Part shown: positions 4,830-36,240 of the stretch, in pieces
Position numbering within the stretch: the first letter of the stretch is position 1
Layout of the letters: every line of letters starts with the position of its first letter
From: a virus
DNA length: 36,240 nucleotides
IMG/VR virus record: IMGVR_UViG_3300032083_003746
Coordinates: 1 to 36,240 of that record
Strand: one strand, 5' to 3'
The notes under the pieces: model-generated
The model's input: the letters and a program-made list of their open reading frames with translations, nothing else
The model's database searches: none
What the model was told of the DNA's origin: nothing
Translations under genes and position numbers: made by a program

Positions 4830-4847
4830 ATGATTAAATTTCCTTTT

Positions 4848-9990: not shown

Positions 9991-11283
9991 CTAAACCTTT
10001 ATAAGAATTTTTTTAGCCCAGTCGCCGTCTTTGATGTGCGGTATAATGACACAATGATCAACAGTACCATCGCAAGAAAAACTAGCAGTAAATTTATTGT
10101 TTTGCTTTCTAAAAAATTGATGATAGAAATTATTGTCTTGATTAAAGTCTTGTCTCCAAAGTAGTTTATCATCTTTATCCTCAAAACCGAAAAACCAAAA
10201 ATCAAAAATAGTATTATCTGGAATATCATTATAGTCCCACTCAACAGTATATGATTGACTACGCATCATACCTGCTGCCCATTCTTCCTCAGTCATTACA
10301 TATGGTTCAGGTATATCTGTAGAATCATTAATCCTTGATGCATTTTTATGTACTTTACGGTTAGAGAAATCTAAACCAGCATAAAGTTCATATTCGTGTA
10401 ATGTTCTTTTTTTACCAAACCCATAATGTCTAAAATCAATATTAGATACTTCCATATTAAATAATGCTCGTTGCCTTTGTTTAGACCTTACATTTCTAGC
10501 TTCAGCTTCTATACCATCAAAATTTGATTTTGCACTAACATGATCTTCCCAGTGTTTATGTTGTTCTTTTCTTAAATATTCATGCCAAATAATAGAGTAT
10601 GTAGGATGGAACATATCATAGCCATGCGTATATGCTCTAGCGCTTAAAGTTACCTCCTCACCCCTAAAATAAAGATTAGGATCGTAGATACATTCTCTAC
10701 AAAACCTACCAGAAGTGAATATAAAATGTCCAGATAATAGTCTAGCTGGAATCAAGTTTATATTTTGAGATTTTAAAAATTTATGATTCATAATAAGTTG
10801 GGGTCGAGATACAATATCTCCATCTTCAGCGAAACTATCAAAAGTAATAATACGATACGGCTCATTCTTTAATGGCTTATCTGGTTTATTAGGCCAGTAT
10901 GTTGTGCCATAGCCGCCTATAATTGGTTTATCTGAAGAGGCTTCTGTATAAAGTTTTTTAAGATGCTCATCCCAATTTTCTAAAAATCTGTGATGAGAAT
11001 CTAACTGTAGATAATACTCCTCATTTGTGTATAAATGTTTCTGTATTATATGCCTAGCCCAACAAGCACCTTTACTGTTTTCCCAAGAACATTCGTGGAT
11101 TTTTACATTTTCATTATAAGCAAATTCTTCTATACTCTCTTCTGCTGTTTTTTGCCAGCATATACCTATTCTTAATAATTCTGGATGCTTAGCTTTTAAA
11201 AATATATCTCTTAGTGTTGGTAGTAACTCAGGGTCTCTATAAGAAGCTATACTTACAAATATTAAATTATTTTTCTGCGTCAT
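9991..11283 (-). CDS. GlcNAc-type glycosyltransferase (Skp1 GnT1-like family)
   Basis: The 430-residue product opens IFVSIASYRDPELLPTL and contains GACWARHIIQ (about 92-101), YYLQLDSHHRFLENWD with the DSH metal motif (about 110-126), and FRGEEVTLSARAYTHGYD (about 227-244). This is the signature of the family typified by the Dictyostelium Skp1 GlcNAc-transferase, which modifies hydroxyproline. A C-terminal domain of about 80 residues (from about 350) is rich in aromatic and acidic residues and may be a carbohydrate-binding add-on. It overlaps the upstream gene by 17 nt. The family call is strong; whether the acceptor is a protein or a glycan is unknown. Confidence 0.87.
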   Translation of the reverse strand: MTQKNNLIFVSIASYRDPELLPTLRDIFLKAKHPELLRIGICWQKTAEESIEEFAYNENVKIHECSWENSKGACWARHIIQKHLYTNEEYYLQLDSHHRFLENWDEHLKKLYTEASSDKPIIGGYGTTYWPNKPDKPLKNEPYRIITFDSFAEDGDIVSRPQLIMNHKFLKSQNINLIPARLLSGHFIFTSGRFCRECIYDPNLYFRGEEVTLSARAYTHGYDMFHPTYSIIWHEYLRKEQHKHWEDHVSAKSNFDGIEAEARNVRSKQRQRALFNMEVSNIDFRHYGFGKKRTLHEYELYAGLDFSNRKVHKNASRINDSTDIPEPYVMTEEEWAAGMMRSQSYTVEWDYNDIPDNTIFDFWFFGFEDKDDKLLWRQDFNQDNNFYHQFFRKQNNKFTASFSCDGTVDHCVIIPHIKDGDWAKKILIKV

Positions 11284-16351: not shown

Positions 16352-17374
16352 TTACACCACATCTAAATCTTTAGACAGGTTTAGAATTGCTCCTTCAGGA
16401 ATTTTCTTAGTATAATTTTTGCCATCGATTTCGTATGTTATGGTCAAGTACTTTCTTAAACCAGGTGCGGGATCTCCGCATAGAGAGTTGTCTATTAATA
16501 TTTTATCAACTCCTCCTTGATTCAATAAATCAATGGCTGGTTTAGCGTCATTAATTATACCAAAAAATGCCTTATGAACATTTTCTTTTACGATCTCCTT
16601 TTCTGTCATAAAAAAACTCCATATGGTTTCTGGGTCTTTAATTGGATGATAAACATGTTTACTTATAGGTCTAATTTGCTGATTACAAAGAGTTTGATGA
16701 CATATCCATCTTTCATAAGATATATATATAGACATATCATCTATTTCTTCTGGTTTTTTATATTGAGATACTTCATAACCTAAATATTTAAGTATAGTAG
16801 CAAATTTAGTCTCTACGTATATTTTATTAGCATGTGGTATTTCTTGGATATGTTTAATAATCGCTTGAGCAGCATCATCCGAGATCATGTTACTACACAA
16901 CGGTGTGCATGCTGCGAAATTTAATGTGGTATAAATATTTTTAATCAAAGGATGTTTTCTTTGAACATCAAACCACCAGTAATGAAATTTTTTATACTTT
17001 TCATCAAAAATAGTATTAGCAGAAATAATACCATTATGATTCTTTAGTAGTTGGTCATCAATTTGAAAAAAATCTAAAATATCGGAAGCTGCATATGTAT
17101 CATATTCTAAAATTAGATACTGTTTAGCTCTTTTATCGGGGTTTGATAAATACCAATACAGAAAAATATTATCAGAACCCCAATACCATATTTCTCCACC
17201 TCCCCAATCTGATATGTGTCTATAATCTAAAAAATCATAAAAATAATTAATAAATTCATTTTGATGAATTGCATGGACCTTATACCCTCTAGAATTATTA
17301 ACAATAGAGTTATAAGTTAGATCTGTTAATTTATCTTTGTTGCTATATATAAAAATAATAGCTAAATCATCCAT
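16352..17374 (-). CDS. Glycosyltransferase-like protein with C-terminal beta domain
   Basis: The 340-residue product begins LAIIFIYSNKDKLTDLTYNSI and has LILEYDTYAASDIL at about 86-99, a DxD-like acidic site, with conserved aromatic patches (GGGEIWYWGSDN, YISYERWICHQ). The last 65 residues form a separate domain with GDPAPGLRKYLTITYEIDG and a following KIPEGAILNL, similar to the DUF3395 beta-sandwich pattern also found at the C-terminus of DnaJ C11-type proteins. It overlaps the GT4 gene by 8 nt. It is probably a sugar-transfer enzyme with an accessory binding domain. Family placement of the N-terminal part is moderate. Confidence 0.6.
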   Translation of the reverse strand: MDDLAIIFIYSNKDKLTDLTYNSIVNNSRGYKVHAIHQNEFINYFYDFLDYRHISDWGGGEIWYWGSDNIFLYWYLSNPDKRAKQYLILEYDTYAASDILDFFQIDDQLLKNHNGIISANTIFDEKYKKFHYWWFDVQRKHPLIKNIYTTLNFAACTPLCSNMISDDAAQAIIKHIQEIPHANKIYVETKFATILKYLGYEVSQYKKPEEIDDMSIYISYERWICHQTLCNQQIRPISKHVYHPIKDPETIWSFFMTEKEIVKENVHKAFFGIINDAKPAIDLLNQGGVDKILIDNSLCGDPAPGLRKYLTITYEIDGKNYTKKIPEGAILNLSKDLDVV

Positions 17375-18449
17375 ATATTTTTGATCCTATAATCTTTGCA
17401 CTTTGTTCCCATGAAAATTTATCTGCCGTTTTCAATCCATTTGAATTACTCTTTATATTATTTTTATACACATATCTCATGTAATCAACACCTTGATCAA
17501 TCACTTTTTTATCTAAATTAGCCCAATTTCCTGTGCTATGAAAAAATTTACCATCTTCAGCTATTTCCATATCTGTGATATTAATTAAATAACTATTATT
17601 ACTATTAGCATATTCTGTATGAGCTGAATAATTTGTTAAAATAATAGGTTTATTCATAGCCATAGTTTCTAAAGCCTCGTTATTCCACCCCTCAGCCCTA
17701 GCTGGATAAATACCACAATCAGTATAAGCCATAATTCTAGCTAATTGTTTTTGAGATGGTAATCTCGGAATCATATGTATTTTATCCCCCAGTTTGGTGT
17801 TTTTGTACATATTTTGCCACTGTCCGTTTTCTTTATCTGTTAAAAACGGATTAGTATTAGCCATCCATAACTCTACATTATCTTTAGGTTCGAAAGCTTC
17901 ATTGAATATGTGTACTAAGATATCATGACCTTTGCGTATCTCCCATTTGCCAGCATTAAAGAATACATAATTTGGAGAAACATCAGCTTCATCTATAGAG
18001 ATATTTTTATCAAATACATTTGTATCAACACCACAAGGGCATACAGTAATTTTTTTCTCTTCTATACCATTATTAATTAAGATGTTTTTTGCCCATGAAC
18101 TTGGAGTAAATATGATATCAGAAATATCGTATCCAATTTTCTCTACATCAGAAATTGAATCTATTTCAAAGAAACTATAAGTAGCATATATACTATTTTT
18201 AGTATGAGGCTTAATCACTAAATCATGTGGATGCCATATTTTTAAACATGGGTTTGAAGGTGAATAGATTTGTTGTTGATTTTTTATATCTGAAATAATA
18301 TTCTCTGTGTTCCAATGTTTTTCTGCTTCTACCTGACCGACAGGAAACAAAGAAATATTATTATTCTTTCTAAGTGCTTTCCATAAATTATAACCACTGA
18401 TACCATAACCTACAGTATTAATAGCGCAAGACAAAGATAGTTTATTCAT
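17367..18449 (-). CDS. Glycosyltransferase group 1 (GT4, GT-B fold)
   Basis: The 360-residue product has the usual two-domain GT-B layout. FTPSSWAKNILINNGI and VCPCGVDTNVF (about 115-145) precede NAGKWEIRKGHDILV (about 166-180), the donor-domain start. YPARAEGWNNEALETMAMNKPIILTNYS (about 252-280, read in two parts) holds the EGWNNEALE motif equivalent to the catalytic E-x7-E. Unlike most family members it has a very short N-terminal loop (VGYGISGYNLWKAL) that fits the sugar-acceptor side. It overlaps GuaC upstream (ATGA). A retaining transfer from a nucleotide sugar is expected; the acceptor is unknown. Confidence 0.88.
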   Translation of the reverse strand: MNKLSLSCAINTVGYGISGYNLWKALRKNNNISLFPVGQVEAEKHWNTENIISDIKNQQQIYSPSNPCLKIWHPHDLVIKPHTKNSIYATYSFFEIDSISDVEKIGYDISDIIFTPSSWAKNILINNGIEEKKITVCPCGVDTNVFDKNISIDEADVSPNYVFFNAGKWEIRKGHDILVHIFNEAFEPKDNVELWMANTNPFLTDKENGQWQNMYKNTKLGDKIHMIPRLPSQKQLARIMAYTDCGIYPARAEGWNNEALETMAMNKPIILTNYSAHTEYANSNNSYLINITDMEIAEDGKFFHSTGNWANLDKKVIDQGVDYMRYVYKNNIKSNSNGLKTADKFSWEQSAKIIGSKIYG

Positions 18450-22476: not shown

Positions 22477-22745
22477 TCTGATTTTTTAGCTTTCCAGAAA
22501 CCTTTAGGACATTCTTGATCAGCCCATGCTAATTTATTCATAAATTCTTTTCTATTTGTTAAATTACAACCACATATATTGCATGTCGCGTCCTCACTCT
22601 TCGGCTTTTTGCTGTAGTGTTCACACGAAGTACATATATTATATCTTTCTAGAATCTCCTCTTTGGAGCATGTAGGAAAGCCTTCTATACAATGCCAAAA
22701 AAGAGAGTAAAAAAATCTAGATATTCTTTTAATTTGTTTGATCAT
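22473..22745 (-). CDS. Small zinc-ribbon-like protein
   Basis: The 90-residue product has two CxxC pairs: CTSC (about 37-40) and CNICGC (about 55-60), followed by a conserved-looking KLAWADQECPKGFW near the C-terminus. This pattern is common in short zinc-knuckle proteins found beside phage and bacterial glycan genes. The N-terminal 20 residues are basic and aromatic (IKQIKRISRFFYSLFW) and may bind membrane. It overlaps the epimerase gene by 17 nt. The function is unknown; a zinc site is likely. Confidence 0.68.
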   Translation of the reverse strand: MIKQIKRISRFFYSLFWHCIEGFPTCSKEEILERYNICTSCEHYSKKPKSEDATCNICGCNLTNRKEFMNKLAWADQECPKGFWKAKKSD

Positions 22746-23736
22746 TTTGGGTTTGTTTTTGAATCCATTCGTAAGTAAGCGTAATGCCTTCTAATAAATT
22801 ATATTTCGGTTCCCAGTTTAGTTTTTCTTTAATTAATCTATTATCGGAATTTCTACCATTGACACCCGTAGGACCTGGTATATTATTAACAGTGATATTT
22901 TTACCAGATAAAGTTGCAATCATTTTTGCAAAATTATTTATGCTGATCATTTCTTCAGATCCGATATTAACAGGACCCATAAAATTATCTGATCTGATTA
23001 ATTTAATTGTTGCGTCTACACAGTCATCAATATATAAAAAAGATCTGGTTTGTTTACCTGTTCCCCAAACTTCAATAGTATCTTCAGAAGAAGCCTCTGC
23101 TATTTTTCTACACAAGGCGGCTGGGGCTTTTTCTTTTCCGTCCTTATAAGTTCCCTCTGGGCCATAAATATTGTGATATCTAGCAACTCTTACATTTAAA
23201 TTATGATTACGATTGTAAGCAAAATATATTCTTTCACTAAAAAGTTTTTCCCATCCATATTCACTATCTGGTGCGGCTGGATATGCTGATGATTCTTCGC
23301 ATTTAGGATTGTCTGGATCCATTTGGTTATATTCTGGGTATACACAAGCACTACTACTATAAAAAACTCTTTTAGCATTAAATAGCGTAGCGTATTGGCA
23401 TGTTAATAGGTTGACAGTAGCAGAATTCGTCATTACATTAGCGTCGTTATCTCCTGTAAAAATATATCCAGCACCACCCATATCAGCAGCTAATTGATAA
23501 ACTTCGTCAAAACTATTTTTATCATCTTTATGAGATTCTTGATTTGGGGCTCGCATTGCTTTTTGCATCACACTTGGATATCTTAAATCTCCAACAATAA
23601 AATCATCAGCTAGGCTTTCGCTAAACATAGGCTTTTTAAGGTCTACAGATCTTACCCAAAAACCTTCTTTTTTTAGTCTTTTTACTAAATGACTACCTAT
23701 AAAACCACCTCCGCCAAATACTAAAGCTGTTTTCAT
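22729..23736 (-). CDS. GDP-mannose 3,5-epimerase-like sugar-nucleotide enzyme
   Basis: The 335-residue product is an extended SDR. GGGGFIGSH at 8-16 binds NAD. SSSACVYPE (127-135) with Cys131, and Y160-x3-K164 (YGWEK), form the catalytic core. The distinctive GME stretch is present: RYHNIYGPEGTYKDGKEKAPAALCRK (read in parts, about 186-211), GKQTRSFLYIDDC, and GPTGVNGRNSDNRLIKEKL. GME converts GDP-mannose to GDP-L-galactose, with Cys131 and a Lys in GKEKAP as expected acid/base residues. It probably supplies a sugar nucleotide to nearby glycosyltransferases. The exact substrate is inferred from family. Confidence 0.88.
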   Translation of the reverse strand: MKTALVFGGGGFIGSHLVKRLKKEGFWVRSVDLKKPMFSESLADDFIVGDLRYPSVMQKAMRAPNQESHKDDKNSFDEVYQLAADMGGAGYIFTGDNDANVMTNSATVNLLTCQYATLFNAKRVFYSSSACVYPEYNQMDPDNPKCEESSAYPAAPDSEYGWEKLFSERIYFAYNRNHNLNVRVARYHNIYGPEGTYKDGKEKAPAALCRKIAEASSEDTIEVWGTGKQTRSFLYIDDCVDATIKLIRSDNFMGPVNIGSEEMISINNFAKMIATLSGKNITVNNIPGPTGVNGRNSDNRLIKEKLNWEPKYNLLEGITLTYEWIQKQTQNDQTN

Positions 23737-24362
23737 TATTTTATACCTTTATAATAATTAAATCGATTAAAATCTTCTTCATAAAATTCTATAGCCCTAT
23801 CTAATAGTGCTTTTCTTTTGAAATATTTTTGATAAGGGTAGTGCTCTGATTTATTTAATAGTGGCAAATCATCATCAATGCAAATTTTATCTTTAATAAA
23901 TTCCCAATCTTGCTGTATCGTTTCGAATTTACCTATAAAATCTAAAGACCTATTTATATCTTTTTGCCATCTGTCTACACAGACATGCAGCGGAACTAAA
24001 TGTAACATTATAGCCATATCCGTTCTTTGCCATAAATCAGTTTTTTGAATATCTTGAGACACTACGTTAAACATATCGGAAAGTTTCCAATCTAACTTAT
24101 GTCCTAATTCTACTAAATCTAATATATTATTCATTTCTTTGTGTATATTTTTCCATCTCCAAGCGCCCAATATAGAAGCTAGTCTATCTAAAGGGTTTCT
24201 AACTATAGTCCAAGTAAAAATATTATTAATATTTATTCTTTTTACAGATTTAATATCGTGATAGCCTTGCCTATTATAACATTGTAAAAAATCATATTTG
24301 TTAACAATAGCGATTTGACTTGTTCCAGCTGTTTTAGGTATATGAAAAAAAATACCTTTCAT
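23736..24362 (-). CDS. Sulfotransferase family protein (PAPS-dependent)
   Basis: The 208-residue product begins FFHIPKTAGTSQIAI (4-18), the 5'-phosphosulfate-binding loop of carbohydrate sulfotransferases. WTIVRNPLDRLASILGAW (about 51-68) matches the 3'-phosphate-binding site with Arg and Ser. HLVPLHVCVD and IGKFETIQQDW follow in family order. This type transfers sulfate from PAPS to glycans or, less often, proteins. The start overlaps the upstream context near the end of the RgpF-like gene with a 12-nt gap, and it is coupled to the epimerase downstream (shared base at 23736). It suggests that the glycans built by this phage may be sulfated. Confidence 0.85.
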   Translation of the reverse strand: MKGIFFHIPKTAGTSQIAIVNKYDFLQCYNRQGYHDIKSVKRININNIFTWTIVRNPLDRLASILGAWRWKNIHKEMNNILDLVELGHKLDWKLSDMFNVVSQDIQKTDLWQRTDMAIMLHLVPLHVCVDRWQKDINRSLDFIGKFETIQQDWEFIKDKICIDDDLPLLNKSEHYPYQKYFKRKALLDRAIEFYEEDFNRFNYYKGIK

Positions 24363-24373
24363 TATTTTCCCTA

Positions 24374-25303
24374 CTATTTTATTGTTATGGATGATCGGGT
24401 TAAATATTTATAATTTACTATTGGTTTATTATCAAAGTGCAACCATTGTATCTGTATAGATCTAGTATTTTTATGTATAATTTTACCATACATATTAACA
24501 TCTTCTAATAAATAACAATAATCATTATAAGTTATGCGTAAATGTAATTTTTTATATTGTTTATTATAAATAACATATGAATCTAATATAGTTGGCAGTA
24601 TCTTTAACTTTTGATAGGTTACTAGATAGCCAAAAATTCTTTCAAGAGAGTGACAAAATGTGCCTTGTTTCGCATATCTGTCATCAACTTTCCCTGTTTC
24701 TGTTTTTAGCAATTTGTCTAAAGCATTATAGTACTTGCTCAGAATATTTTTATAGACTTGGGTTTTACCCATAAACATTGAACCAGCAGCAAATGCGTGC
24801 ATAGATAATGTTTCATAATTAATATTCAATATTTTACAAAGTTGCAGTATCTTATTGTGGTTGTATCCTTCATTATTTTTTAATGTTAAAAATTTGACAG
24901 AACACATCCCTACATGTTCTCTACTTAATAAATTTAAGTTTTTATGTAAATCTTGAGCATTGCCAATTAGACTATCGATAAGCACTGTACCCCAATCAAC
25001 ATGCATTTTTGTTCCCCAGTTAGATTTTTTTGAATGAACTTTTATGAAAGATGGAAATTTTTGATAATCTAAATCTTTAATTTGTTTTAAAAAAGGAGCA
25101 ATATCAACACCGTAATTATCATGATAGTCAATTTTATGAAAAATGAATTTATGTTTATTTAATAAATTATTTAATGTTTGATTATTTTTATGTCTTTTAC
25201 CTAAAGAAAGATCTATTGGTAGGTTGCATCTATATGCTAGTTTAATTATATCCTCTATACGATCAATATCATACATAGAGCATAGTATTATTGCTTTATT
25301 CAT
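24374..25303 (-). CDS. RgpF-like (rhamnan synthesis F) glycosyltransferase
   Basis: The 309-residue product shows the RgpF pattern: DNYGVDIAPFLKQIKDL (about 63-79), FIKVHSKKSNWGTKMHVDWG (86-105), FAAGSMFMGK (about 169-178) and FCHSLERIFGYL (about 213-224). This family adds rhamnose or related sugars to polysaccharides. The last 70 residues are a beta-rich add-on (LRITYNDYCYLLE, IQIQWLHFDN), reminiscent of the C-terminal domains of the glycosyltransferases at 7.9-10 kb but not clearly homologous. It follows the giant protein gene by 6 nt. Family call good; donor not proven. Confidence 0.83.
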   Translation of the reverse strand: MNKAIILCSMYDIDRIEDIIKLAYRCNLPIDLSLGKRHKNNQTLNNLLNKHKFIFHKIDYHDNYGVDIAPFLKQIKDLDYQKFPSFIKVHSKKSNWGTKMHVDWGTVLIDSLIGNAQDLHKNLNLLSREHVGMCSVKFLTLKNNEGYNHNKILQLCKILNINYETLSMHAFAAGSMFMGKTQVYKNILSKYYNALDKLLKTETGKVDDRYAKQGTFCHSLERIFGYLVTYQKLKILPTILDSYVIYNKQYKKLHLRITYNDYCYLLEDVNMYGKIIHKNTRSIQIQWLHFDNKPIVNYKYLTRSSITIK

Positions 25304-25309
25304 ATTTGA

Positions 25310-28300
25310 CTATCCAGGTAGATCTATTTGATCAAATTCGTCGCAATCTAGACAATCAGCATCTGTTGTTAAATTAATATTATTCTCAGTAGGAGGACAT
25401 CTAAACACATCGCTTGGGTCCGTGTCATAGTTTTCTCCGCAGTAAAATAATAATGCTTCGAACGTAACGCTTGCTCTACCGCTTAAATTGTCCATTTTGC
25501 ATTCTAAATTTTTAATTTCAAAACCAGTATTATACCGGGGACTCCCGGTTACATTTAATATAGTAATATCGCTACCACTTGGCAACAAGTTTGATCTGTT
25601 TTCAGGAATTCTAATATCTCCCCCACTATAGACCCATGTAGAATTACTAAATGATGTACTCCTGCTAAGAGGTATATTAATCCATATGGCTTTGGGGTTT
25701 TGCCCTCCTTCAGCGACCAAAGGAATGTTAATAGATGAAGGAGTAAATTCAGTACCTTCTTTACATCCTGTTTCTTCGTCTATGTCTTCATCACAGCATG
25801 TCCAATGACCAACTTGCCTACATCCTTGAACCCCTTCATCATCACATAATGCATACCAATTACTTAATCTTTCCTGACATTCAGTACATCCTGTTGTATT
25901 AATACAAGATTGCTCCAAGCAGTCTCTTAGGTTGTCAAAAGTTTCGCATGGTGTGGAGCCGTCAAGCTCCCCAGTAAATACACAGTTGCCATCTCCCATT
26001 CTGGCTTTATTTTCTTCGCTATTTTTGATACATCCTACGAATTGTGTATTACCACTATCATCTCGACAAAAATCACAACCAGGGCAAACGTAGTGAGATA
26101 TAGGATAACATGTATCTCCATCACATAATACATAATAACCATGAGACCCACTCTTCCATGTAAAGTCTTCTTTGGGGTTTTCGCATAATTCTGTCATATA
26201 ATTTGCTTCGCACTCTCTCATAGCCTGCATTGTAGAACAGGCCGTGTTACCATTAGCGGAGAAAAATTCAGCACCTTGACATGAGCTATGTTCAGATTGC
26301 CATAAGTATTGACATTCACTTGAAGACCCAATAAATAACGGTAAAGCCTGATTACAACTATTCAAACAAGAAAATCCTTCATCCGGCATGATATTACCAT
26401 CTATACCTGAAATATCTTCGTGTTGTAGTATGTCGTCGCAACAGATTGCGGGCGGGGGGGTCAATGTCGCTGCTGGTGGGGTGGTTTGAGGTGGTGGGGG
26501 TGGAGGGTGTTGAGGAAGTGGTGTGGGTGTTGTTATTGTTTCTGGTGTTATTGTTTCTGGTGTTATTGTTGTTGGTGTTTTTGTTGCTGTTGTTATTGTT
26601 GTTGGTGTTGTTGTAGTAGTTGTTGTAGTAGTTGTAGTGGTTGTTGGTGGAGGTGGTGGAGGTGGCGGTGGAGGTGGGGTTGGTGTTGTGGTGGTTTCTG
26701 TGGGACATGGCCGACACTCTTGACAGGTTGAGTATGATGAAATCCTACCAAACTCATCTGTTGGTGCTAATATATTTAATTTAATTACTTGATGTGAGGT
26801 GCTAGGTAATGTATTTACCATAGTGTCAAAATATAATTTGCCGCAATTATTTTGGAAAGATGCTGTACCATAATCGCTTTCTCCCGAAGCTATTGGATCA
26901 TATCCGAGTTCTTTATAAACAGAGCTATATTGTAAAGTATATCCTAAAAGTTCAAAGATATGAATTGAAAGTGTTGGTGCTTCAAAGGTATTTTCATTTA
27001 ACCATTCGCAAACTGGTGTGTTGTTGATCTCAGATACATAAATAGGCACATTATAAAACAAATGTATGAGTTCAATGTTATTTTCAGATGTTGGTGTTGG
27101 TGTTGGTGTTGGTGTTGGTAAGACTTTTGTTAGATGACTATCTTCATCTCCACAAATACACATACCCAAATATAAATAACAAGGCAGTGGTGTCTCTGTT
27201 ATGGTGGTTGTTGTTGTGGTTGGTGTTGTTGTAGTAGTTGTAGTTGTAGTTGTAATTGGTTGTGGTGGTTTTGTTGTTGGTATTGGTGTTGGTATTGGTG
27301 TTGATATTGGTGTGGTTCTCGTTGTCGTTGTCGGACAATAGTCTAGCATATGATCTGTTAAACAGAACTCGCAACTCACATATGAATCTTGAGTCGCATT
27401 AGCTATTAAAGTAGCTTGATGATAAATTGTGGCATCTGATGGTAAATCAGCAGCATCAACCAACCAAGCACGAGCGCAAAAATTTTGATCTTCATAATTA
27501 CCGCCATCTGATTCCTGAAACTGTTTAATATGAATATAATATTTTGGATCATCTATATAAGCTGTCGTTTGATGTCGATTAAAAATTTCTTCAGTCCAGT
27601 ATTTAGCAGCATAGACGCTATCTTGATAATTATTTTCGCTAGTAATTGTATTAATATATTTAACATATTTAATAGAATTTATCTCATTGCAACATCCGTC
27701 TATTTCTTGTATTGCTACATATATTAGGTCAGGATTTATTTGTGCTGATGAGGTCTTTTGAATACCTATAGGATTTGGTGCATTATAAGTTGTAACAGCT
27801 CTGAAATTGTAAGTTGGATCCAATATTAACATTTCGTCTACTATAAAGGTAATAGTTTGAGTGTAAATATTTTCTTGATCTCTATATTCACCCAGTAAAC
27901 TATCTACATCAGAACTTATTAAAGAATTACTTGCTGGTAAATCATCCCAACTTTCCCAGTCATTAGCAAATCCAGACTGCCATTGTAATTCAGCATATTC
28001 TCCAGAGTCTCCTACACCTCTAGGCCAAGCATTTTCTAATTGAACAGAATTTGCTAAATTAATAATCGGTTCTGCAATTTTATAAATAATTTTTGTTCTT
28101 AAAAAAGTAGATCCTGAATCTTCATAGGTTTCTGTTTTGAATTTAACGCTATCTAATATATGTGCTGTTGGAGACTGTTTAGCACTGTGCAATCCTTTAG
28201 TATCTCTGGTAGTACCTGAAGGGTCATAGCTTTTGTCATTAGAAAATCTTAAAGGATCTACTTGATTAATAGGACCATCAGAATCATATATAGTTTGTTC

Positions 28301-31300
28301 ATAAATATCTTTTTTGATACTGCTATTGCCTTTATTACTAAATATTTTGACAATGTAATTACGTCCTGTGGAGTCTTCTCCGGGGAAAGTACAACACGAA
28401 CAATCTATAGGTGTTGTGTATGTTGGTGTTGGTGTTGCATTATCTGAATAAGAATAATTAGAATTACTACTGTGGGCACAATCTTTATCTACTAGAAGAT
28501 TATTGCCATGAGAAGTTTGATTGTTTATAGTTCCAAAAAGTGATTCTAAATTAATAGTTACTATAAAAAATCTCCAGTGATTAGGTATACTACCTAAATC
28601 TGAAGCAAATCCAGATAAAAACTTTCTATATCTAGAAGGAGCATTTCCGGCGTCTACCCTTAGAATAGGAATATTATCCCAAGATTGATAATCATTCTTG
28701 TAAAGACCCCAATTTTCCCCATCAACATAACAGCCTGTAGTGTCATTTCCTGTAAAACTATTGTCGCTAGGAGATAAATCAATACATTTTTTAACCATTT
28801 GCCCAATGCCAGTTATACTACTATCAGAAGATTTATTAGTTGCTATGGATATACCATATCTAGTAGCATCGCATTTCCCCGGAGGGTCGTCATCATATAA
28901 AACATTAAGACCAAAATCTGTTATAACTGATAAATCAACAGCCCATGCAATCGTGATACTATCATGATCTTTAAATAGTCTAACGTAACGACTATCTTCC
29001 GAGCAATCTTCAAATGGAGGTTCTGTTTCTGGTGTTGGTGTTGTAGTAGTAGGCTCTGTAGTAGCACAGCTTAATTGATATCGACTTAGTAATGCGTTAA
29101 CATTAGTTTGTATTTCATTAATATTTAATGCTTTGTCATATACTAAGAAAGGACCCAGCTCACCATCATACGCTTTTGCATAACCAGTTGCTCGGCCTAT
29201 GTGTGATATAGTCAGAATGTTTTCAAGTTCATTCGTTGGAGTTGCAGAAGCATCTCTTCCATAGTCTGATGTTTCTCCCAAAAAGAAACAATCTTTATAA
29301 TGATAAGCTTTATAGCTATCAAATACAATTGTATAAACAGACCATTGATTGTTATCAAAAGAAGTAGCAGGTCCATCAAATGTATTTAGATTAGTATCGG
29401 TTTCGCCTTTAACTTGGTTGCTATCTAACTGTATATATGATTTATTATGAGATCCTCCATATATTAAATTACTAGGCTTAAAATTTCGAACAACAAAACT
29501 AATTGTACTGCTAACAGTACCAAGTGTTAAATTGTCTCCGTTTGTCTTTGCATTAATAAACAAAGATTGAGAACTTCCATTAAATGTTAAGTAGCTAAAA
29601 TCACTAGAAAATATAGGCCAGTTTATTAACTGTGCATCATATCTATCAGCAGCAGCTTTACCGGGTGTTAGATCTAATAAAAAATTACCATAAGCACTAG
29701 CGTTAGGGTCATAAGATAATGGATCTATAAAACATTCTAAACCATCTGTTACTATACTAGGGAAAATATATGGAGTTGGGGTTACTGTAGTTGGGGTTGT
29801 TGTAGTGGTTGTAGTTGGTGTAACACAAGAATTAATATCTGGGTATCGTCCTGTCTTCACAATTTCATTATGGTTGTGCTTAATTTCAGCATCACTTAAT
29901 TCTTTGTCATACAATAAGATAGGTCCAACTCTACCCTGAAAGCCAGTACCTATCTCACTAAAGTAAAAATGACCTAATAGTTTATTAGCAACAACATCTC
30001 GACCGGGGGTTACTCCCTCACTAGCCCTACATGCTGAATATCCATACCATGTTTCTTCACCTATAAATTCACAATTTTTATAATATCTAACTATACCTTC
30101 TTTGCTTACACGAATAGTTATGTTGTACCATTTTTGTCTATCCATATCAAATTGTGGTTCATTAGTTACTCTACTACCATCATATATATTCGTTGTATAG
30201 AAAGCTGTTTGAAAATAATTTAGACCAAAATAATGACCACCATTTAGATCTCTATAACCACAACTTTCGTCTGCACCTGTTCGCGTTATATCGTCAGTAG
30301 ATCCTATTAAATAACTTCTTTTATCCCCAAAGAATCTAGACTCATATTCTTCTATGGCAATTTTACTGCTATAGTTCTTTGTTGAAAATAATACTCCACC
30401 ACTGTAAAATCTATAAACTACAAAATTTAGTGTACATCCACCATCTGGATGATAAGTATCACCATGTATATTAATATCATCACTATCTGCGCTCGGCTCA
30501 ATAGATAAGTCAATAGCTCTATTAGACTGTTGTATATCGATATAACCTCCCCATCCGGGGAGTTGGATATAACTATTATCTGGAGCGTAGCGGGGTAGTG
30601 TCCAAGGAGGGTCGTCGTCACCTGTCGCAAAAGTGCTATCAAATATACCATGATATCCATTACCACTCCAATCGTATATCTGATACTGAGATAAATCGAT
30701 AGATGGAGTGGGGGTAGTAGTAGTGGTAGCATAATTTTCAGGTGGTGGGTTTTGTGACAACTCAGGGTCATAAAAAAGTGTCAGTCCATCTTTAATAGGA
30801 TTAAATGAAACTCTGCTTTGATCGGTAGGGTTAGTAACTAAATATAACGAACTAAAGCTACTAATATGAACAGATATAGTTTTATTTGCAAAGTTACGGA
30901 TGTAATCTCCATGCTCGATAGTTGCATCTGTAATGCCATATTCATCTTTGTGGAATATTTTAAGACTATCAAACTCTGATTTAGCTATATTGCTGTTTAA
31001 GTTAAATGTTACTATTACACTACCTGAGAAATTTGCGGTAGCTGTAAGATTTACAGCAGAGGCACTGTCTATCAGGTTGTATTCTGTGATTGGTTCAATG
31101 TCTGGCAAATCGTAATCGGTTTGTATTGCTAGGTCGCCAGAATTAGTAATTTCATCAAAAGTTAAGTCAATAGAATCAATGAAATAATCAGAATAAGAAA
31201 GATTGGTGGATACATCCGACCCTTGGTTTAATGTTTTATTTCTAGAGATATCTTGACTAACTATATAGAATAAGCTAAATTCATCAACTTGTGCGGATAT

Positions 31301-33445
31301 CTTTTTTGTTTCAAAATCACGAGCATATGTGCCGCTATTAACTGTCACATCTGTAAGTTCTGAAGTATCTTCTTTTATACGAAATACTTTTAAGTTATTG
31401 AACTCTGCTTTGGTAATATTATTTTCTGTATCATCTATTGAGAAGTCTATGATTGCATCTCCATCAAATGATATTGGTGTGTCAATGTCTATAGAATCAA
31501 TAATGGCATCGTTAGCATAATCTGTAGCAAAATCTGTAGATGGTACAGTGCTAGCATCTAATAATGATAGTGATAATTCATTTAAGTCAATAATATTAGA
31601 GAAGGATAACCCCAAAGTAAGAAGCTTATTAGTTCCTATGCCAGGGGATGTTGTAATTGAGAATGGATAATTTGGATCAGGAGTCGCTGTGGTAACAACT
31701 TGATGAATAGTAGGGGTTTGCGATACAGATGAAGTAGCTGTCGGAGTAGCTGTCGGAGTAGCTGTCGGAGTAGCTGGTGGGCTTGAAGGCGGAGGTGCTG
31801 GTGGTCCCGGAAGTGCTGGTGGGCTTGGAGGTGCTGGTGGGCTTGGTGGTGCTGGTGGTCCCGGAGGTGCTGGTGGACCTGGTAGCGCTGGTGGGCTTGG
31901 AGGTGCTGGTGGACTTGGTGGAGGAGGTGCTGGTGGACTTGGCGGCGATGATGGACTTGGCGGCAATGGTGGGCTTGGCGGTGAAGGTGCTGGTGGACTA
32001 GGAGGTTGAGGTACTGGAGGAATTGGGGGTTGAGGTACTGGAGGAATTGGAGGTTGAGGTGCTGGTGGGCTCGGTGGTGGTGGACTTGGTGGTGATGGAC
32101 TTGGAGGCGGTGGGGGTGCGGGCGTTATAGGAGTTTGCGTCGGAGGAGGTGTTGGTGGGGTTGGGGGCGAAGGTGCTGGTGGGTTTGGAGGCGGAGGTGA
32201 TGGTGGGCTTGGTGGTGGTGGACTCGGTGGTGGTGGTGGTGGAGTAGCTGCTTGACAAGGTGGATTAGACATAGCAAAGGCAACTTTATAATCACATTTG
32301 TCTGAACTCCACTGGAGTGATTGTTGTTTTTCGAGTTTATGAGTACCCAATACTTCATCAAAACACCATTCAAATTCAGATTTACTCGCAGAGCAAGAAG
32401 GTTTTTTATCTGGACCAACATTGTAATTACAATATTCATGACTACTAATCACAATAGCATTAAATGGACCAACTACGGTCCACTGAAAATCATTAACATC
32501 TGCACCATCTCCACAAGCACAGCATATATCATCCTCTGGTGGTTCAGTAGTTTCAGGCGTACTTGGGGGAGGTGGTGGAGGAGGTGAGCTAGGACACTCG
32601 TCCATATATCTAATAAAAAATGGCACCCAACCGCATTCTGAAAAACTAAAAGCGTAGGAAGTCAGACCTAGTTGTGATCCATCGGGACATATACTGGGTT
32701 CACCTACAGGAGGCAAGCTCGTAGGGCCAGTACAGTCTTCTGTTGGAGGTTCTGGAGGAAAAGGTGGAGAAGGCGGTGGAAAAACTGGTGGAGCAACGGT
32801 TGCTGTGGTTTGTGTTTCATTAAGTATTTTTGCTAGATCGTTATTTTGTAATATATCTGGTAAATCTTTATCTATAATTAAATCACTATCACACAATTTT
32901 TGTTGTATTTTATATCGACATTTATCTAAACAGTTTGAATCATTATTATAGTTTTCATTACAATGGTTTTGAAAATTATTGATAGCAAATTTTACAGAAG
33001 AGATGTTTACAAAAGGACCTAGTGTTATTTCTTTAGAGTTTTTATCACAATCGTCTTCTAGCATAAGATAGAAACAAATTTGATTTTTTAAAAATTCATC
33101 AGATGTAATTCTCGGTTCTTGCGATTTGTTGTCTATGATAATAGAATTTGGTGGTTTTTCTCCATAAGGAGAGCTATATATTAAATTATCACCAGAGTAA
33201 AGCTCATAGTAATTTTCATAACTATAAAATCCAGATTCATTATAAACTATTTCGAATAGAGAATCTTCTGAATCAATATGAAATTTATATATTTTACTAT
33301 TAATATCATCTATATAGTCATTATATAATAATGTAATATTTTCTAAAATTATTTTATTATTATGTTTGATTGATAATGAATTATTGTTCCAACCATCTTG
33401 TTTAGTGTCATACAAAATGATATTGTAATATTTACGCTTACTCAT
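25310..33445 (-). CDS. 2711-residue mosaic giant protein: Pro/Thr-rich linkers, LamG-like and Cys-rich domains
   Basis: Approximate domain order: 1-105, a DxxGDGW-type beta domain; 128-182 and 310-395, Cys-rich domains with a GPF motif; 395-575, a tract of SPP/PPPP/GPPAPP repeats like extensin or pherophorin; 588-735 and 738-875, two related beta domains ending in FSLFY/FSSLY; 882-1205 and 1228-1458, two LamG/concanavalin-like domains, each opening with DGL and containing LYDKELSDAEI or VYDKALNINEI. Then 1478-2035, two unassigned domains; 2035-2088 and 2247-2328, mucin-like Thr/Pro linkers; 2330-2568, a Cys-rich block with an internal repeat; 2569-2711, a beta-rich end. No signal peptide is visible. 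It is probably a virion adhesin or fibre. The start ATG overlaps the preceding stop (ATGA). Confidence 0.85.
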   Translation of the reverse strand: MSKRKYYNIILYDTKQDGWNNNSLSIKHNNKIILENITLLYNDYIDDINSKIYKFHIDSEDSLFEIVYNESGFYSYENYYELYSGDNLIYSSPYGEKPPNSIIIDNKSQEPRITSDEFLKNQICFYLMLEDDCDKNSKEITLGPFVNISSVKFAINNFQNHCNENYNNDSNCLDKCRYKIQQKLCDSDLIIDKDLPDILQNNDLAKILNETQTTATVAPPVFPPPSPPFPPEPPTEDCTGPTSLPPVGEPSICPDGSQLGLTSYAFSFSECGWVPFFIRYMDECPSSPPPPPPPSTPETTEPPEDDICCACGDGADVNDFQWTVVGPFNAIVISSHEYCNYNVGPDKKPSCSASKSEFEWCFDEVLGTHKLEKQQSLQWSSDKCDYKVAFAMSNPPCQAATPPPPPPSPPPPSPPSPPPPNPPAPSPPTPPTPPPTQTPITPAPPPPPSPSPPSPPPPSPPAPQPPIPPVPQPPIPPVPQPPSPPAPSPPSPPLPPSPSSPPSPPAPPPPSPPAPPSPPALPGPPAPPGPPAPPSPPAPPSPPALPGPPAPPPSSPPATPTATPTATPTATSSVSQTPTIHQVVTTATPDPNYPFSITTSPGIGTNKLLTLGLSFSNIIDLNELSLSLLDASTVPSTDFATDYANDAIIDSIDIDTPISFDGDAIIDFSIDDTENNITKAEFNNLKVFRIKEDTSELTDVTVNSGTYARDFETKKISAQVDEFSLFYIVSQDISRNKTLNQGSDVSTNLSYSDYFIDSIDLTFDEITNSGDLAIQTDYDLPDIEPITEYNLIDSASAVNLTATANFSGSVIVTFNLNSNIAKSEFDSLKIFHKDEYGITDATIEHGDYIRNFANKTISVHISSFSSLYLVTNPTDQSRVSFNPIKDGLTLFYDPELSQNPPPENYATTTTTPTPSIDLSQYQIYDWSGNGYHGIFDSTFATGDDDPPWTLPRYAPDNSYIQLPGWGGYIDIQQSNRAIDLSIEPSADSDDINIHGDTYHPDGGCTLNFVVYRFYSGGVLFSTKNYSSKIAIEEYESRFFGDKRSYLIGSTDDITRTGADESCGYRDLNGGHYFGLNYFQTAFYTTNIYDGSRVTNEPQFDMDRQKWYNITIRVSKEGIVRYYKNCEFIGEETWYGYSACRASEGVTPGRDVVANKLLGHFYFSEIGTGFQGRVGPILLYDKELSDAEIKHNHNEIVKTGRYPDINSCVTPTTTTTTTPTTVTPTPYIFPSIVTDGLECFIDPLSYDPNASAYGNFLLDLTPGKAAADRYDAQLINWPIFSSDFSYLTFNGSSQSLFINAKTNGDNLTLGTVSSTISFVVRNFKPSNLIYGGSHNKSYIQLDSNQVKGETDTNLNTFDGPATSFDNNQWSVYTIVFDSYKAYHYKDCFFLGETSDYGRDASATPTNELENILTISHIGRATGYAKAYDGELGPFLVYDKALNINEIQTNVNALLSRYQLSCATTEPTTTTPTPETEPPFEDCSEDSRYVRLFKDHDSITIAWAVDLSVITDFGLNVLYDDDPPGKCDATRYGISIATNKSSDSSITGIGQMVKKCIDLSPSDNSFTGNDTTGCYVDGENWGLYKNDYQSWDNIPILRVDAGNAPSRYRKFLSGFASDLGSIPNHWRFFIVTINLESLFGTINNQTSHGNNLLVDKDCAHSSNSNYSYSDNATPTPTYTTPIDCSCCTFPGEDSTGRNYIVKIFSNKGNSSIKKDIYEQTIYDSDGPINQVDPLRFSNDKSYDPSGTTRDTKGLHSAKQSPTAHILDSVKFKTETYEDSGSTFLRTKIIYKIAEPIINLANSVQLENAWPRGVGDSGEYAELQWQSGFANDWESWDDLPASNSLISSDVDSLLGEYRDQENIYTQTITFIVDEMLILDPTYNFRAVTTYNAPNPIGIQKTSSAQINPDLIYVAIQEIDGCCNEINSIKYVKYINTITSENNYQDSVYAAKYWTEEIFNRHQTTAYIDDPKYYIHIKQFQESDGGNYEDQNFCARAWLVDAADLPSDATIYHQATLIANATQDSYVSCEFCLTDHMLDYCPTTTTRTTPISTPIPTPIPTTKPPQPITTTTTTTTTTPTTTTTTITETPLPCYLYLGMCICGDEDSHLTKVLPTPTPTPTPTSENNIELIHLFYNVPIYVSEINNTPVCEWLNENTFEAPTLSIHIFELLGYTLQYSSVYKELGYDPIASGESDYGTASFQNNCGKLYFDTMVNTLPSTSHQVIKLNILAPTDEFGRISSYSTCQECRPCPTETTTTPTPPPPPPPPPPPTTTTTTTTTTTTTPTTITTATKTPTTITPETITPETITTPTPLPQHPPPPPPQTTPPAATLTPPPAICCDDILQHEDISGIDGNIMPDEGFSCLNSCNQALPLFIGSSSECQYLWQSEHSSCQGAEFFSANGNTACSTMQAMRECEANYMTELCENPKEDFTWKSGSHGYYVLCDGDTCYPISHYVCPGCDFCRDDSGNTQFVGCIKNSEENKARMGDGNCVFTGELDGSTPCETFDNLRDCLEQSCINTTGCTECQERLSNWYALCDDEGVQGCRQVGHWTCCDEDIDEETGCKEGTEFTPSSINIPLVAEGGQNPKAIWINIPLSRSTSFSNSTWVYSGGDIRIPENRSNLLPSGSDITILNVTGSPRYNTGFEIKNLECKMDNLSGRASVTFEALLFYCGENYDTDPSDVFRCPPTENNINLTTDADCLDCDEFDQIDLPG
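26460..26705 (-). repeat. Thr/Pro-rich mucin-like tract near the C-terminal Cys-rich block
   Basis: The coding strand gives a run of about nine Pro, then a long Thr run, then mixed TPTT/TPETIT units and a second Pro-rich stretch. The nucleotide sequence is a degenerate GTT/GGT array on the plus strand, prone to slippage. It separates domain E from the Cys-rich C-terminal part of the giant protein and is a natural site for O-linked sugars. Similar shorter Thr tracts occur at 27180-27340, 29010-29070 and 29765-29830. Confidence 0.85.
27090..27119 (-). repeat. Hexanucleotide microsatellite (GTTGGT x5)
   Basis: On the plus strand GTTGGT is repeated five times without interruption. On the coding strand it gives alternating Thr-Pro, in domain E of the giant protein. 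In-frame slippage could change Thr-Pro number. Confidence 0.9.
31734..31776 (-). repeat. 12-bp tandem repeat (three copies plus a partial) coding TPTA units
   Basis: On the plus strand the unit GTAGCTGTCGGA is repeated three times without change (31734-31745, 31746-31757, 31758-31769) and then starts again. It codes for TPTA-type repeats at the end of the Pro-rich tract of the giant protein. Whole-codon units mean copy-number change would alter linker length without a frameshift. Confidence 0.9.
31780..32260 (-). repeat. Proline-rich low-complexity tract in the giant protein
   Basis: About 160 codons of the giant gene encode mainly Pro, Ser, Ala and Gly in SPP, PPPP and PGPPAPP patterns. It contains exact 24-bp tandem units at 32004-32051 coding PPVPQPPI. 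The tract is strand-asymmetric (G-rich on the plus strand, C-rich coding). Repeats are in multiples of three, so slippage would change length in frame. A polyproline-II rod linking two globular parts is the likely structure. Confidence 0.88.
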
Positions 33446-34431
33446 AATTTTATTATAGTATTATCTGGTGGTTTTTCATACATAGTAGATTTAAAGATTA
33501 ATTTATTGTCGCAGTCATAGATTTCGTAGTAATTTTCATACGATAGTTTATTTTTAGAGTGATATCTTATATTGAAGTTTTTTTCTGCTAAATCTATATT
33601 TATAATTTTAGTATACGGACCATAGCCATGATCTAAAGTAATATTACTAATAATAGGATTATGAAGCGAATCATTAATATCTATATAATTATCTTTCCAC
33701 CCATCTCCATAAGTATCATATAATTTTACAGTAAATTGTTTTGTTTCTGATTTTTTACAAATTCTTGCACTAATATAGTTGGCATAATATTCATTAGAGA
33801 CTTCATATTTAATACCAGACTTAGCGTTGTTGGGATGCCTGTTATTTGAGCCGCCTGATATCGTATATTTATCTGCATAACTATTATCTATAATAGTAAA
33901 GTATTTAAATCCTGCATTGATTAATCCATATTTAGTCATAGTATTATTGTACATATCAGAATCAGAATATGAATCACTACTATTTGGGAATGCCCAATAT
34001 TTTTTTTCATAAGCGTCGTAGTAAACTGCTTTATACCATTCGTTAAAATTAGGTATCCAGTATTTGGCAGCAGATTTTTCGAAAGTGTTTTCTTTAATAT
34101 TATATGGAAATTCATTAATAATTTTAAGATTGTGCGTATTAATCCAATTGCAATAAATTTTTAAGTTATTTATATTAATATATTTAATAGGAGAATATGG
34201 ATCTACGTCTGGATTTAATGAAAAAATACTTTGTTGTGATTGTATGATATTTTTTGTATATTGGTTATATAAGCCTAATGGTTCAACAAGTGGAGATATA
34301 CAATTTAAAAATTCTACATAATTTTCACAAGATATAAAGTTTTGTTGAATGAAAAAATTATAATCAACACTACCATATGTGTTAATATCTGGTTCATTAT
34401 TTTTATTTTTTATTAAGCAGTAATTACTCAT
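33442..34431 (-). CDS. FGE-sulfatase/C-type-lectin-fold protein fused to a DxxGDGW domain
   Basis: The 329-residue product has a SUMF1/FGE-sulfatase-like domain at about 24-228: ISCENYVEFLNCI, IKYININNLKIYCNWI, AKYWIPNFNEWYKAVYYD (122-139), KYWAFPNSSDS, ISGGSNNRHPN (191-201) and ISARICKK at the end. The paired catalytic Cys of true formylglycine-generating enzyme are not evident, so a binding role in a C-type-lectin fold is more likely. Residues 233-329 form a beta domain (LYDTYGDGWKDN) that is repeated at the start of the giant protein directly downstream. It overlaps both neighbours by 4-8 nt. It is probably part of the same surface structure. Confidence 0.75.
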   Translation of the reverse strand: MSNYCLIKNKNNEPDINTYGSVDYNFFIQQNFISCENYVEFLNCISPLVEPLGLYNQYTKNIIQSQQSIFSLNPDVDPYSPIKYININNLKIYCNWINTHNLKIINEFPYNIKENTFEKSAAKYWIPNFNEWYKAVYYDAYEKKYWAFPNSSDSYSDSDMYNNTMTKYGLINAGFKYFTIIDNSYADKYTISGGSNNRHPNNAKSGIKYEVSNEYYANYISARICKKSETKQFTVKLYDTYGDGWKDNYIDINDSLHNPIISNITLDHGYGPYTKIINIDLAEKNFNIRYHSKNKLSYENYYEIYDCDNKLIFKSTMYEKPPDNTIIKL

Positions 34432-35110
34432 TATACTGTGTGGTTATAGTGATATTTGAAGAATTAAAATTTAAAGATTTATATAATATATTAAAACTAT
34501 TAAATATTGGCTGGTACTCTGTGCAATTGATTCTTTGAAATTCATCATGAATAAAGTTAGGATTTTGATAAATACTCATAATATCTATAGTTTCGTCTGT
34601 GTTTTTATCTTGTGCAGAGATCATCAGTATGCATTTTGTTCGGAAATAATATAAATATGCATGAACCATATACTCTTCATGATCTATAGCAGAAACCCAC
34701 ACTTGATTATATCCCACCCATTGATGGAATTTATGTAGTCGATCTCTTACTGTGAATAGTATATTTGGCAGCTTATTGATTCTGGTTGAATCTTGACATA
34801 AGCAGTTGATAGTATTTAAATCCACTGTATTTTCAGATGGCTCTATCAAATTTGATGGAGGAATTAATATATTCTTTTTAATATTATCTTTTTTATTAGT
34901 CCAACCACTTTTAAATGTTATAGGTATCATATTATCATTATATAGTTTTATAACATCATCAGATTTGTGATCTTGTATTACGCAAGTAATTTTATTATAT
35001 ATATCCTCATTCATAACATATGAAAAATTTTTTTTACATAAGATACTTTCGAATGGTTTATTGTATAAATAAATATTGTTATTAAAATAATTTATAGATA
35101 AGTATATCAT
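34424..35110 (-). CDS. Unknown protein beside the giant virion genes
   Basis: The 228-residue product is soluble and beta-rich with conserved-looking aromatic stretches (RDRLHKFHQWVGYNQVWVSAIDHEEY at about 121-146, in two parts). Four Cys are scattered. No catalytic motif is recognised. It lies between two surface-type genes and overlaps both (ATGA and 8 nt), so it is probably made with them; a chaperone, connector or minor fibre role is possible but not supported by sequence. Confidence 0.6.
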   Translation of the reverse strand: MIYLSINYFNNNIYLYNKPFESILCKKNFSYVMNEDIYNKITCVIQDHKSDDVIKLYNDNMIPITFKSGWTNKKDNIKKNILIPPSNLIEPSENTVDLNTINCLCQDSTRINKLPNILFTVRDRLHKFHQWVGYNQVWVSAIDHEEYMVHAYLYYFRTKCILMISAQDKNTDETIDIMSIYQNPNFIHDEFQRINCTEYQPIFNSFNILYKSLNFNSSNITITTQYNE

Positions 35111-35334
35111 AATAGTTGATCGAAAAAGTTAATATGGCAAAAATCTATCAATGTGTTTTTGTTTTCGCTAAATACAAAAGTTGTAATGTTAATTGATTCA
35201 ATACCTTTGGTTGTCTTTATAATAATATTATCACTATGTACATTCAAGGGGTGTTTTATATTTTTATAATCTTCTTGATTGATATAATAATTAATTTTAA
35301 ATAAAATATCTGTATCTATATTATTCACATTCAT
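35107..35334 (-). CDS. Small unknown protein
   Basis: I place the start at the ATG at 35334 (MNVNNIDTDILFKIN); a TTG two codons earlier is less likely. The 75-residue product is beta-rich with no Cys cluster. It overlaps the preceding Cys-rich giant gene by 14 nt and the next gene by 4 nt. The Shine-Dalgarno is weak. No family is recognised. Confidence 0.55.
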   Translation of the reverse strand: MNVNNIDTDILFKINYYINQEDYKNIKHPLNVHSDNIIIKTTKGIESINITTFVFSENKNTLIDFCHINFFDQLL

Positions 35335-36240
35335 TATCAATAGACATCCAATCGACCGCTTCTTCTTCTGTATAAAACATCAATAATTCCGCACCAAATT
35401 GGTGAGGCGGGCATTCTTCATTATTATCTATCATTAGTAATTGTTTTGGTGATTGTATATTGTTAAAACAGTATTTCTCATAACCACACCATCTGAAAAA
35501 TTGATTAATTCCATCAAAATCTTTTTCACAAGGTGAGTCTTGACATAAGTGGTCACAGCAATATCCATCTTTAATAATAATATTTACAAAACATTCATTT
35601 TGACATAATAAATTATTGTTATATTTAGAGCAATAATGGTCATTCTTATATCTTTCAGCTTCTTCTTTTGATGTATAAGGTCCGTCTAGATACAAATGAT
35701 TATCGCACTGGCTTTTATATTCGATATAGAAATATTTGCAATCTTTATTATTTAAACAATATGGGTTTTCTTTTTCTGATAAATTATCTTCGGGTAATAT
35801 AAAAGCTAGACCTAATCCTGTTGCTTCTTCTGTAGCCGCCTCAGTAGTTTGGGGGCCATGAGTTGATTCAGTACATACTCCATCAATACAGCTGTTACTT
35901 GGGGGGCAACAGCTACCACCACAACAACTGTAACCAAAAGGGCAGCAGTTGCCGTTACAGCACTGGCTGGCATTGCAACAGCTACCACCACAACAGACTT
36001 CACCACCAGCGCAGCAAACATTATTGCAGCAAACATTTGGATATGCGCAGCAGTACGTACCGCAGCATCTTGTGTTTGTTGTTCCTCCACAACACGAACC
36101 TGAGCCACCTGTGCAGTTTCCGCAATAGTCATCTGTTACATCTGGGCAGCATACGGGTAAATCAGCACTATTGTAACATATTAAATGAAAACCGTCAGGA
36201 CATGGGTTTGAAGGAGGTGCTGGTGGTTCCGGAGGTCCCG
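35321..36240 (-). CDS. C-terminal end of a Cys/Pro-rich giant surface protein (N-terminus beyond window)
   Basis: Reading the minus strand shows one frame open from the right edge to the stop at 35321, giving the last 305 residues. It opens with a Pro-rich linker (GPPEPPAPPSNPCPDG). It continues with a block at about 28-125 holding twelve Cys-Cys pairs in CCxGG/CCxxxCC spacing (CCGGSCCNASQCCNGNCC), a granulin-like cysteine-stack pattern. It then has a short Thr/Ala linker and a C-terminal domain with YLDGPYTSKEEAERY and HYC...CQNEC, homologous in layout to residues 128-182 of the 2711-aa protein (LGPF..., HCNENY..., C...C). It is therefore a sister of that giant protein. The inside TTG at 35695 is not its start. 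Confidence 0.8.
   Translation of the reverse strand, partial: GPPEPPAPPSNPCPDGFHLICYNSADLPVCCPDVTDDYCGNCTGGSGSCCGGTTNTRCCGTYCCAYPNVCCNNVCCAGGEVCCGGSCCNASQCCNGNCCPFGYSCCGGSCCPPSNSCIDGVCTESTHGPQTTEAATEEATGLGLAFILPEDNLSEKENPYCLNNKDCKYFYIEYKSQCDNHLYLDGPYTSKEEAERYKNDHYCSKYNNNLLCQNECFVNIIIKDGYCCDHLCQDSPCEKDFDGINQFFRWCGYEKYCFNNIQSPKQLLMIDNNEECPPHQFGAELLMFYTEEEAVDWMSIDNECE

Follow-up and report, generated by a model that had tools for sequence, protein, structure and literature searches.

The stretch of DNA analysed here, which we call the window, comprises 36,240 bp and is filled by a run of minus-strand genes, among which a single open frame encodes a giant protein of 2,711 residues (Table 1). The giant's ATG lies at 33445 and its stop codon at 25310-25312; its first 4 bases (33442-33445) are shared with the preceding gene at that gene's stop, and the next gene begins 6 bases after the giant's own stop.

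Architecture of the giant and its surroundings

A relative of 2,607 residues (P0002), encoded on a 194,787-bp IMG/VR contig (G002, also L004), is 70% identical to the giant from end to end and has the same domain order; its Pro rod and Thr tracts stand in corresponding positions but differ in sequence and length. A third contig (L021) encodes the C-terminal domain at 40% identity. This conservation identifies the frame as a genuine gene rather than a chance ORF, and it agrees with the original prediction of a single mosaic protein. That unrelated genes were joined during assembly across the low-complexity linkers is highly improbable: low-complexity DNA can mislead assembly, and frame breaks occur in a neighbouring rod gene and in the GT60 gene of G002, but the independent contig at 70% identity keeps the order and the linker positions, and a partial copy on another contig (G003) is 99.8% identical.

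Table 1. Features of the giant (residue numbers are its own) and of neighbouring genes in the window
Feature	Position	Strand	Basis
Mosaic giant, 2,711 aa, whole ORF	25310..33445	-	ORF and full-length relative P0002
Residues 1-110, GDGW domain	33116..33445	-	homologous to C-terminus of ORF 33442-34431
Residues 111-215, segment absent from P0002	32801..33115	-	alignment gap
Residues 236-400, two Cys-rich segments with short Pro spacer between	32246..32740	-	alignment
Residues 401-575, extensin/pherophorin-like Pro rod (PPSPPAP repeats)	31721..32245	-	composition; position conserved
Residues 586-735, first of two related domains	31241..31690	-	95% aa identity to relative
Residues 736-880, second of two related domains	30806..31240	-	mutual similarity
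Residues 881-1208, LamG-like domain 1	29822..30805	-	Pfam score in relatives; similarity to domain 2
Residues 1209-1226, Thr linker 1	29768..29821	-	composition, alignment
Residues 1227-1462, LamG-like domain 2 (PF13385)	29060..29767	-	Pfam score
Residues 1475-1670, domain without family match	28436..29023	-	82% identical in relative
Residues 1680-2035, domain without family match	27341..28408	-	about 80% identical in relative
Residues 2036-2088, mucin-like Thr linker 2	27182..27340	-	composition
Residues 2089-2248, variable domain	26702..27181	-	33% identical in relative
Residues 2249-2333, mucin-like Thr/Pro linker 3	26447..26701	-	composition
Residues 2334-2711, Cys-rich C-terminal domain	25313..26446	-	35-40% identical in relatives
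Second rod protein, 3' end (Pro/Thr rod, then CCGGxCC repeats), cut by window end	35321..36238	-	
228-aa protein	34424..35110	-	same order conserved in relatives
Preceding gene, FGE-sulfatase-like N-terminus and C-terminal GDGW domain	33442..34431	-	PF03781, 19.8 bits, below 23.3 cut-off
RgpF-like protein, after giant	24374..25303	-	homologue in L004 matches PF05045, 1e-11
Sulfotransferase	23736..24362	-	PF03567, 3e-11
Nucleotide-sugar epimerase	22729..23736	-	PF01370, 1e-38; PF16363, 2e-25
Group 1/4 (GT4-type) glycosyltransferase	17367..18449	-	
GT60 polypeptide GlcNAc-transferase family	9991..11283	-	PF11397, E 1e-66
GT2-like glycosyltransferase, weak	7963..8907	-	20.3 bits
GT25 glycosyltransferase	7220..7966	-	1e-21

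Most of the segments predicted from the DNA alone are found in the protein: the Cys-rich segments, the pherophorin- or extensin-like Pro rod (65 Pro in residues 401-500), the mucin-like Thr tracts (32-35 Thr per 100 residues in residues 2001-2100 and 2201-2300) and the Cys-rich end. The predicted kinship of the two domains that follow the rod is borne out by their match to each other (blastp E 5e-13), and the two LamG-like domains are likewise supported, the second scoring 26.7 bits, just under the Pfam cut-off of 27.6, and 29.4 bits in relatives, and the first scoring 20.3 bits in relatives and resembling the second (E 1e-8). The N-terminal domain had been described by a DxxGDGW motif; the domain is there, though its sequence at this point in the giant is DTKQDGW. 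DTYGDGW, which fits the motif exactly, occurs in the ORF before it, the C-terminal domain of which is homologous to the giant's N-terminal domain (44% identity over about 100 aa). AlphaFold modelled the GDGW domain of that preceding ORF at a pLDDT of about 77 and most of its remainder below 50; the best structural matches of the domain, to C2, PLAT and carbohydrate-binding modules (beta-sandwich), have Z of about 7, which is noise level, and we make no claim from them. For residues 585-1462 of the giant (878 aa, alignment of two sequences) the mean pLDDT is 27, and the beta fold suggested for the two related domains is thus not borne out by the model.

Searches by database gave few matches. 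LamG is the sole family that Pfam recognises in the giant; PHROG and the annotated phages of INPHARED contain no match, a search of its profile against PDB sequences found nothing, and the full-length relative came from IMG/VR. The only match in 84,980 cellular genomes, to a Bacillota rumen MAG (29%, residues 394-579), was rejected as falling on the low-complexity Pro rod. The description of the linkers as plant/algal-like therefore stands for composition and not for homology. No signal peptide, hydrophobic N-terminus or membrane helix was found in the 2,711 residues.

The linkers had also been read as tandem DNA repeats in codon multiples. All 22 tandem arrays in the gene do have periods divisible by 3, and they cover 767 bp, compared with 544 +/- 74 bp (maximum 681) in gene-wide synonymous shuffles and 663 +/- 63 bp (maximum 802) in local ones. 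Because local shuffling gives almost equal coverage, the arrays are mostly amino-acid repetition, which together with local codon bias explains nearly all of the coverage; the excess over synonymous shuffles is only small, and we do not claim that the linkers grew by recent DNA duplication.

Several other genes of the block deserve mention. An IMP-dehydrogenase/GMP-reductase-like gene (18446-19561; phrog_9582, 5.5e-110) is kept across the family and may feed GDP-sugar synthesis, and a protein that appears papain-like by eye (605-1531), with no PHROG match, is 67-93% identical in relatives and among the most conserved of the block. Two Cys-rich proteins of 400 aa (3627-6080) are found only in contigs of the window's own phage; in the relative G014 their slot is occupied by a mosaic protein of 1,094 aa, LamG-like by eye, which suggests a second exchangeable adhesin slot. 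The second rod protein is represented at L004:3279-8394 by about 1,000 residues of PPAPPT-type repeats and a CCGGxCC end, its frame apparently broken near the start.

Phage family, domain exchange and tail-module relatives

Over its left 8,514 bp the window matches one end of a 165,940-bp contig (G006) at 99.98% identity, and it therefore belongs to a tailed phage of roughly 200 kb that has capsid genes of its own. We assign G006 to the window's own phage by this overlap and a further contig, G007, which extends further on the other side, by an oxygenase gene identical to that of G006; the two were accordingly rejected as GT60-negative relatives. The capsid gene on G006 is 92% identical to that of G002, in which a terminase match was also found, and it belongs to a family with at least 600 relatives in IMG/VR. 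Its only match among annotated phages is a distant one, the major head protein of Bacillus phage G (21%). For the capsid protein at L011:15592-16590, the best 80 of the at least 600 IMG/VR relatives are 83-100% identical and there is no PHROG match, marking a widespread, unannotated family.

The host is probably a planctomycete. G002, G006 and G007 each encode a DUF1559 protein, a family typical of Planctomycetota, and the end of G002 carries DUF1501 and PSD1/DUF1553 genes, which are typical of the same phylum. That end (L019:17292-19785), with DUF1501 in two frames, DUF1553 and a ferredoxin-like gene, has the look of a planctomycete chromosome and could be host flank, a chimera or captured genes. 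The family offers a way into the phages of Planctomycetota, which have been little studied.

Divergence between the giant and P0002 is distributed unevenly. Synonymous divergence (dS) is 0.12-0.48 over residues 586-2035, 0.4-1.2 ahead of residue 586, and beyond residue 2035 it exceeds 1 or is saturated, save for one linker at 0.8; dN/dS is about 0.2-0.5 in most segments. Since dS is low in the middle and higher in the ends, the giant is a recombinant mosaic whose middle was exchanged recently while its ends diverged. In one relative (L020) the whole giant is missing within an otherwise conserved gene order, with the locus, GT60 and the rod protein kept, which indicates an accessory module.

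In its own clade the giant lies outside the tail module; on G002 the tail genes occupy the plus strand at about 38-64 kb and the giant the minus strand at 116-124 kb, about 50 kb apart. In relatives, giants lie inside that module. In G014 (238 kb, with a capsid protein 85% identical) the tape-measure gene is followed directly by a series of giants, 850-2,500 aa long, in which LamG (29.7 bits), FGE-sulfatase (51.7 bits) and RCC1 repeats are linked by the same kind of Thr/Pro tracts; the RCC1 repeats are of beta-propeller type (L116, G014:20136-38621). Because giants of the same build follow the tape-measure gene in phages of the same family, the giant is likely a virion adhesin, and a ligand-binding domain, as in a receptor-binding protein, is found in the form of LamG, which exceeds its cut-off in relatives. 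The suggestion that the arrangement is not a standard tail fibre is thus correct as to the lack of annotated-phage relatives and the gene's place outside the tail module, but must be tempered by the tail-module giants of the family.

A protein that acts during infection outside the virion, whether exported, shown on the surface of the infected cell or set free by lysis to serve as matrix or decoy, would suit a gene that stands apart from the tail genes in a block rich in sugar-modifying genes, as would Cys-rich domains, which are typical of extracellular proteins. The missing signal peptide and membrane helix and the similar giants behind the tape measure in relatives argue against it, and we consider it improbable. 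The FGE-sulfatase-like domain, present both in the gene next to the giant and in giants of relatives, recalls receptor-binding proteins of the Mtd/FGE type that are diversified by DGRs; as reverse transcriptase (PF00078) was found in none of the 20 contigs, we reject a DGR system.

Co-encoded enzyme families

GT60 is encoded in the window, in every contig that carries the giant's locus and in two wider relatives. The copy at G002:101134-102418 (L015) is broken by stops, but G001, whose capsid protein is identical, has the gene intact, so that a sequencing error is probable. The clade also encodes NeuB, a UDP-GlcNAc 2-epimerase (NeuC-type), a CMP-sugar cytidylyltransferase, GDP-mannose dehydratase (GMD), UDP-galactopyranose mutase and several sulfotransferases. 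NeuB and a prolyl-hydroxylase-like 2OG-Fe(II) oxygenase (PF13640) lie on the window's companion contig; it is the 8.5-kb overlap that links the window to the oxygenase gene (G006:15380-15961). Among the 20 contigs the oxygenase occurs in G002, G006 and G007 only, that is, in the clade with long Pro rods, and its nearest solved relatives are prolyl 3-hydroxylase 1 (1.7e-6) and prolyl 4-hydroxylases (1.2e-5).

In eukaryotes GT60 is a polypeptide-modifying family and not one of envelope polysaccharides (PMC6939170): together with a prolyl hydroxylase it places GlcNAc on hydroxyproline of Skp1 in the cytosol of Toxoplasma and Dictyostelium (PMC6939170), and a GT60 enzyme of Trypanosoma cruzi is reported to start mucin chains on Thr (PMC3769586). 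Of the features of mucin-type glycoproteins, Thr/Ser/Pro-rich tracts and a predicted initiating polypeptide glycosyltransferase (GT60) are found in the same genome. Of those of hydroxyproline-rich glycoproteins, the Pro-rich rod is present (401-575) and the signal peptide is absent, so that the giant is similar in build to extensins and pherophorins and not a member of their class. With the Pro rod, the Thr tracts and both kinds of enzyme present, substrate and enzymes would meet in one phage lineage.

The giant may instead be a modular adhesin of the usual kind, on tail or capsid, whose Pro/Thr linkers are flexible and bare, the glycosyltransferases altering the host surface (superinfection exclusion) or another phage component; we regard this as possible but less likely. 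Modular exchange and LamG domains are usual in phage adhesins, and the association of linkers with enzyme within the family is not significant: Thr/Pro tracts occur in six of six phages with GT60 and in three of six without (Fisher two-sided about 0.18), counted on incomplete contigs after merging those of the same phage, and proteins with such tracts are present in G008, G010 and G017, where GT60 was not found. Moreover, L020 has GT60 and no giant at the locus, so GT60 must have other substrates too, and the oxygenase and sugar enzymes could serve other glycans. Against bare linkers stand the polypeptide-modifying role of GT60 in eukaryotes, the prolyl-hydroxylase-like gene in the clade with long Pro rods, and glycoproteins in the virions of a phage with a GT60 homologue, XacN1, described below.

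A possible virion glycoprotein and its known counterparts

As the best single reading, in which our confidence is evenly divided, we propose that the giant is a mucin/extensin-like glycoprotein of the virion and that the phage also encodes the enzymes that would glycosylate it. It would be a virion adhesin of the roughly 200-kb tailed phage built like a eukaryotic surface glycoprotein, with binding modules (GDGW, LamG lectin-like and Cys-rich) strung on the stiff Pro rod and the Thr/Pro tracts. Phage enzymes would probably modify these linkers in the host cytosol, the lack of a signal peptide being consistent with cytosolic assembly: the oxygenase would act on the Pro rod, GT60 would initiate O-linked GlcNAc on hydroxyproline and/or Thr, and the GT25, GT2, GT4, sugar-nucleotide enzymes and sulfotransferases would extend and cap the chains. 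The product would be an extended, glycan-coated fibre reaching the host surface, its middle domains exchanged by recombination. More tentatively, the system may be self-contained, with Pro-rod and Thr-tract scaffolds, a prolyl hydroxylase, GT60 acting on both hydroxyproline and Thr, and decoration of sialic-acid, fucose, galactofuranose and sulfate type on a glycan-coated virion fibre.

The giant is unusual, and the new point is its surroundings, in which a hydroxylase-like enzyme is paired with GT60. To our knowledge, reports of glycosylated phage virion proteins are rare. Should the enzymes act on the giant, we would know of no earlier hydroxyproline/threonine glycosylation pathway encoded by a phage together with its substrate (a literature search found none). 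Such a pathway would have arisen by convergence with eukaryotic mucins and the Skp1 pathway, and its small cytosolic enzymes would be of use for making glycoproteins in bacteria.

Each known counterpart shares part of this arrangement. The Skp1 pathway of Dictyostelium and Toxoplasma (PhyA and Gnt1) employs the same pair of enzyme families, prolyl-hydroxylase-like and GT60, in the cytosol, but is eukaryotic and modifies a single Pro of one small protein. Mucins of T. cruzi and others, plant extensins and algal pherophorins have the composition of the giant's Thr/Pro tracts and Pro rod; without sequence homology found and without a signal peptide in the giant, this is a resemblance only. Like LamG/ConA-like adhesins of phages and bacteria (PF13385), the giant has two LamG-like domains between linkers, but its scores are weak, and its combination with GDGW, Cys-rich domains and a Pro rod was seen nowhere else in the collections searched.

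Among the 50,697 annotated phage records of INPHARED, GT60 was found only in Xanthomonas phage XacN1 and Stenotrophomonas phages CM1 and RAS14, which, being related, count as one independent case and not three. Their GT60 homologue (ORF334 in XacN1) is 33-35% identical over 99% to that of the window's phage, and they alone in INPHARED carry the XacN1 giant, ORF325, which in XacN1 adjoins a baseplate gene and has TPTPTP linkers (TPTPTPTPT) near the C-terminus. The two kinds of giant differ in having no detectable sequence relation, and in the XacN1 group the linkers are short, with no long Pro rod; the PF13640 oxygenase is absent from XacN1 and RAS14. According to the available text of the XacN1 report (PMC5852040), at least two glycoproteins were detected experimentally in the virions, and its authors suggested the phage's own transferases, ORF334 among them, as the source of the glycosylation; that text does not name ORF325 among the virion proteins. 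Another glycosyltransferase is encoded by ORF328 of XacN1.
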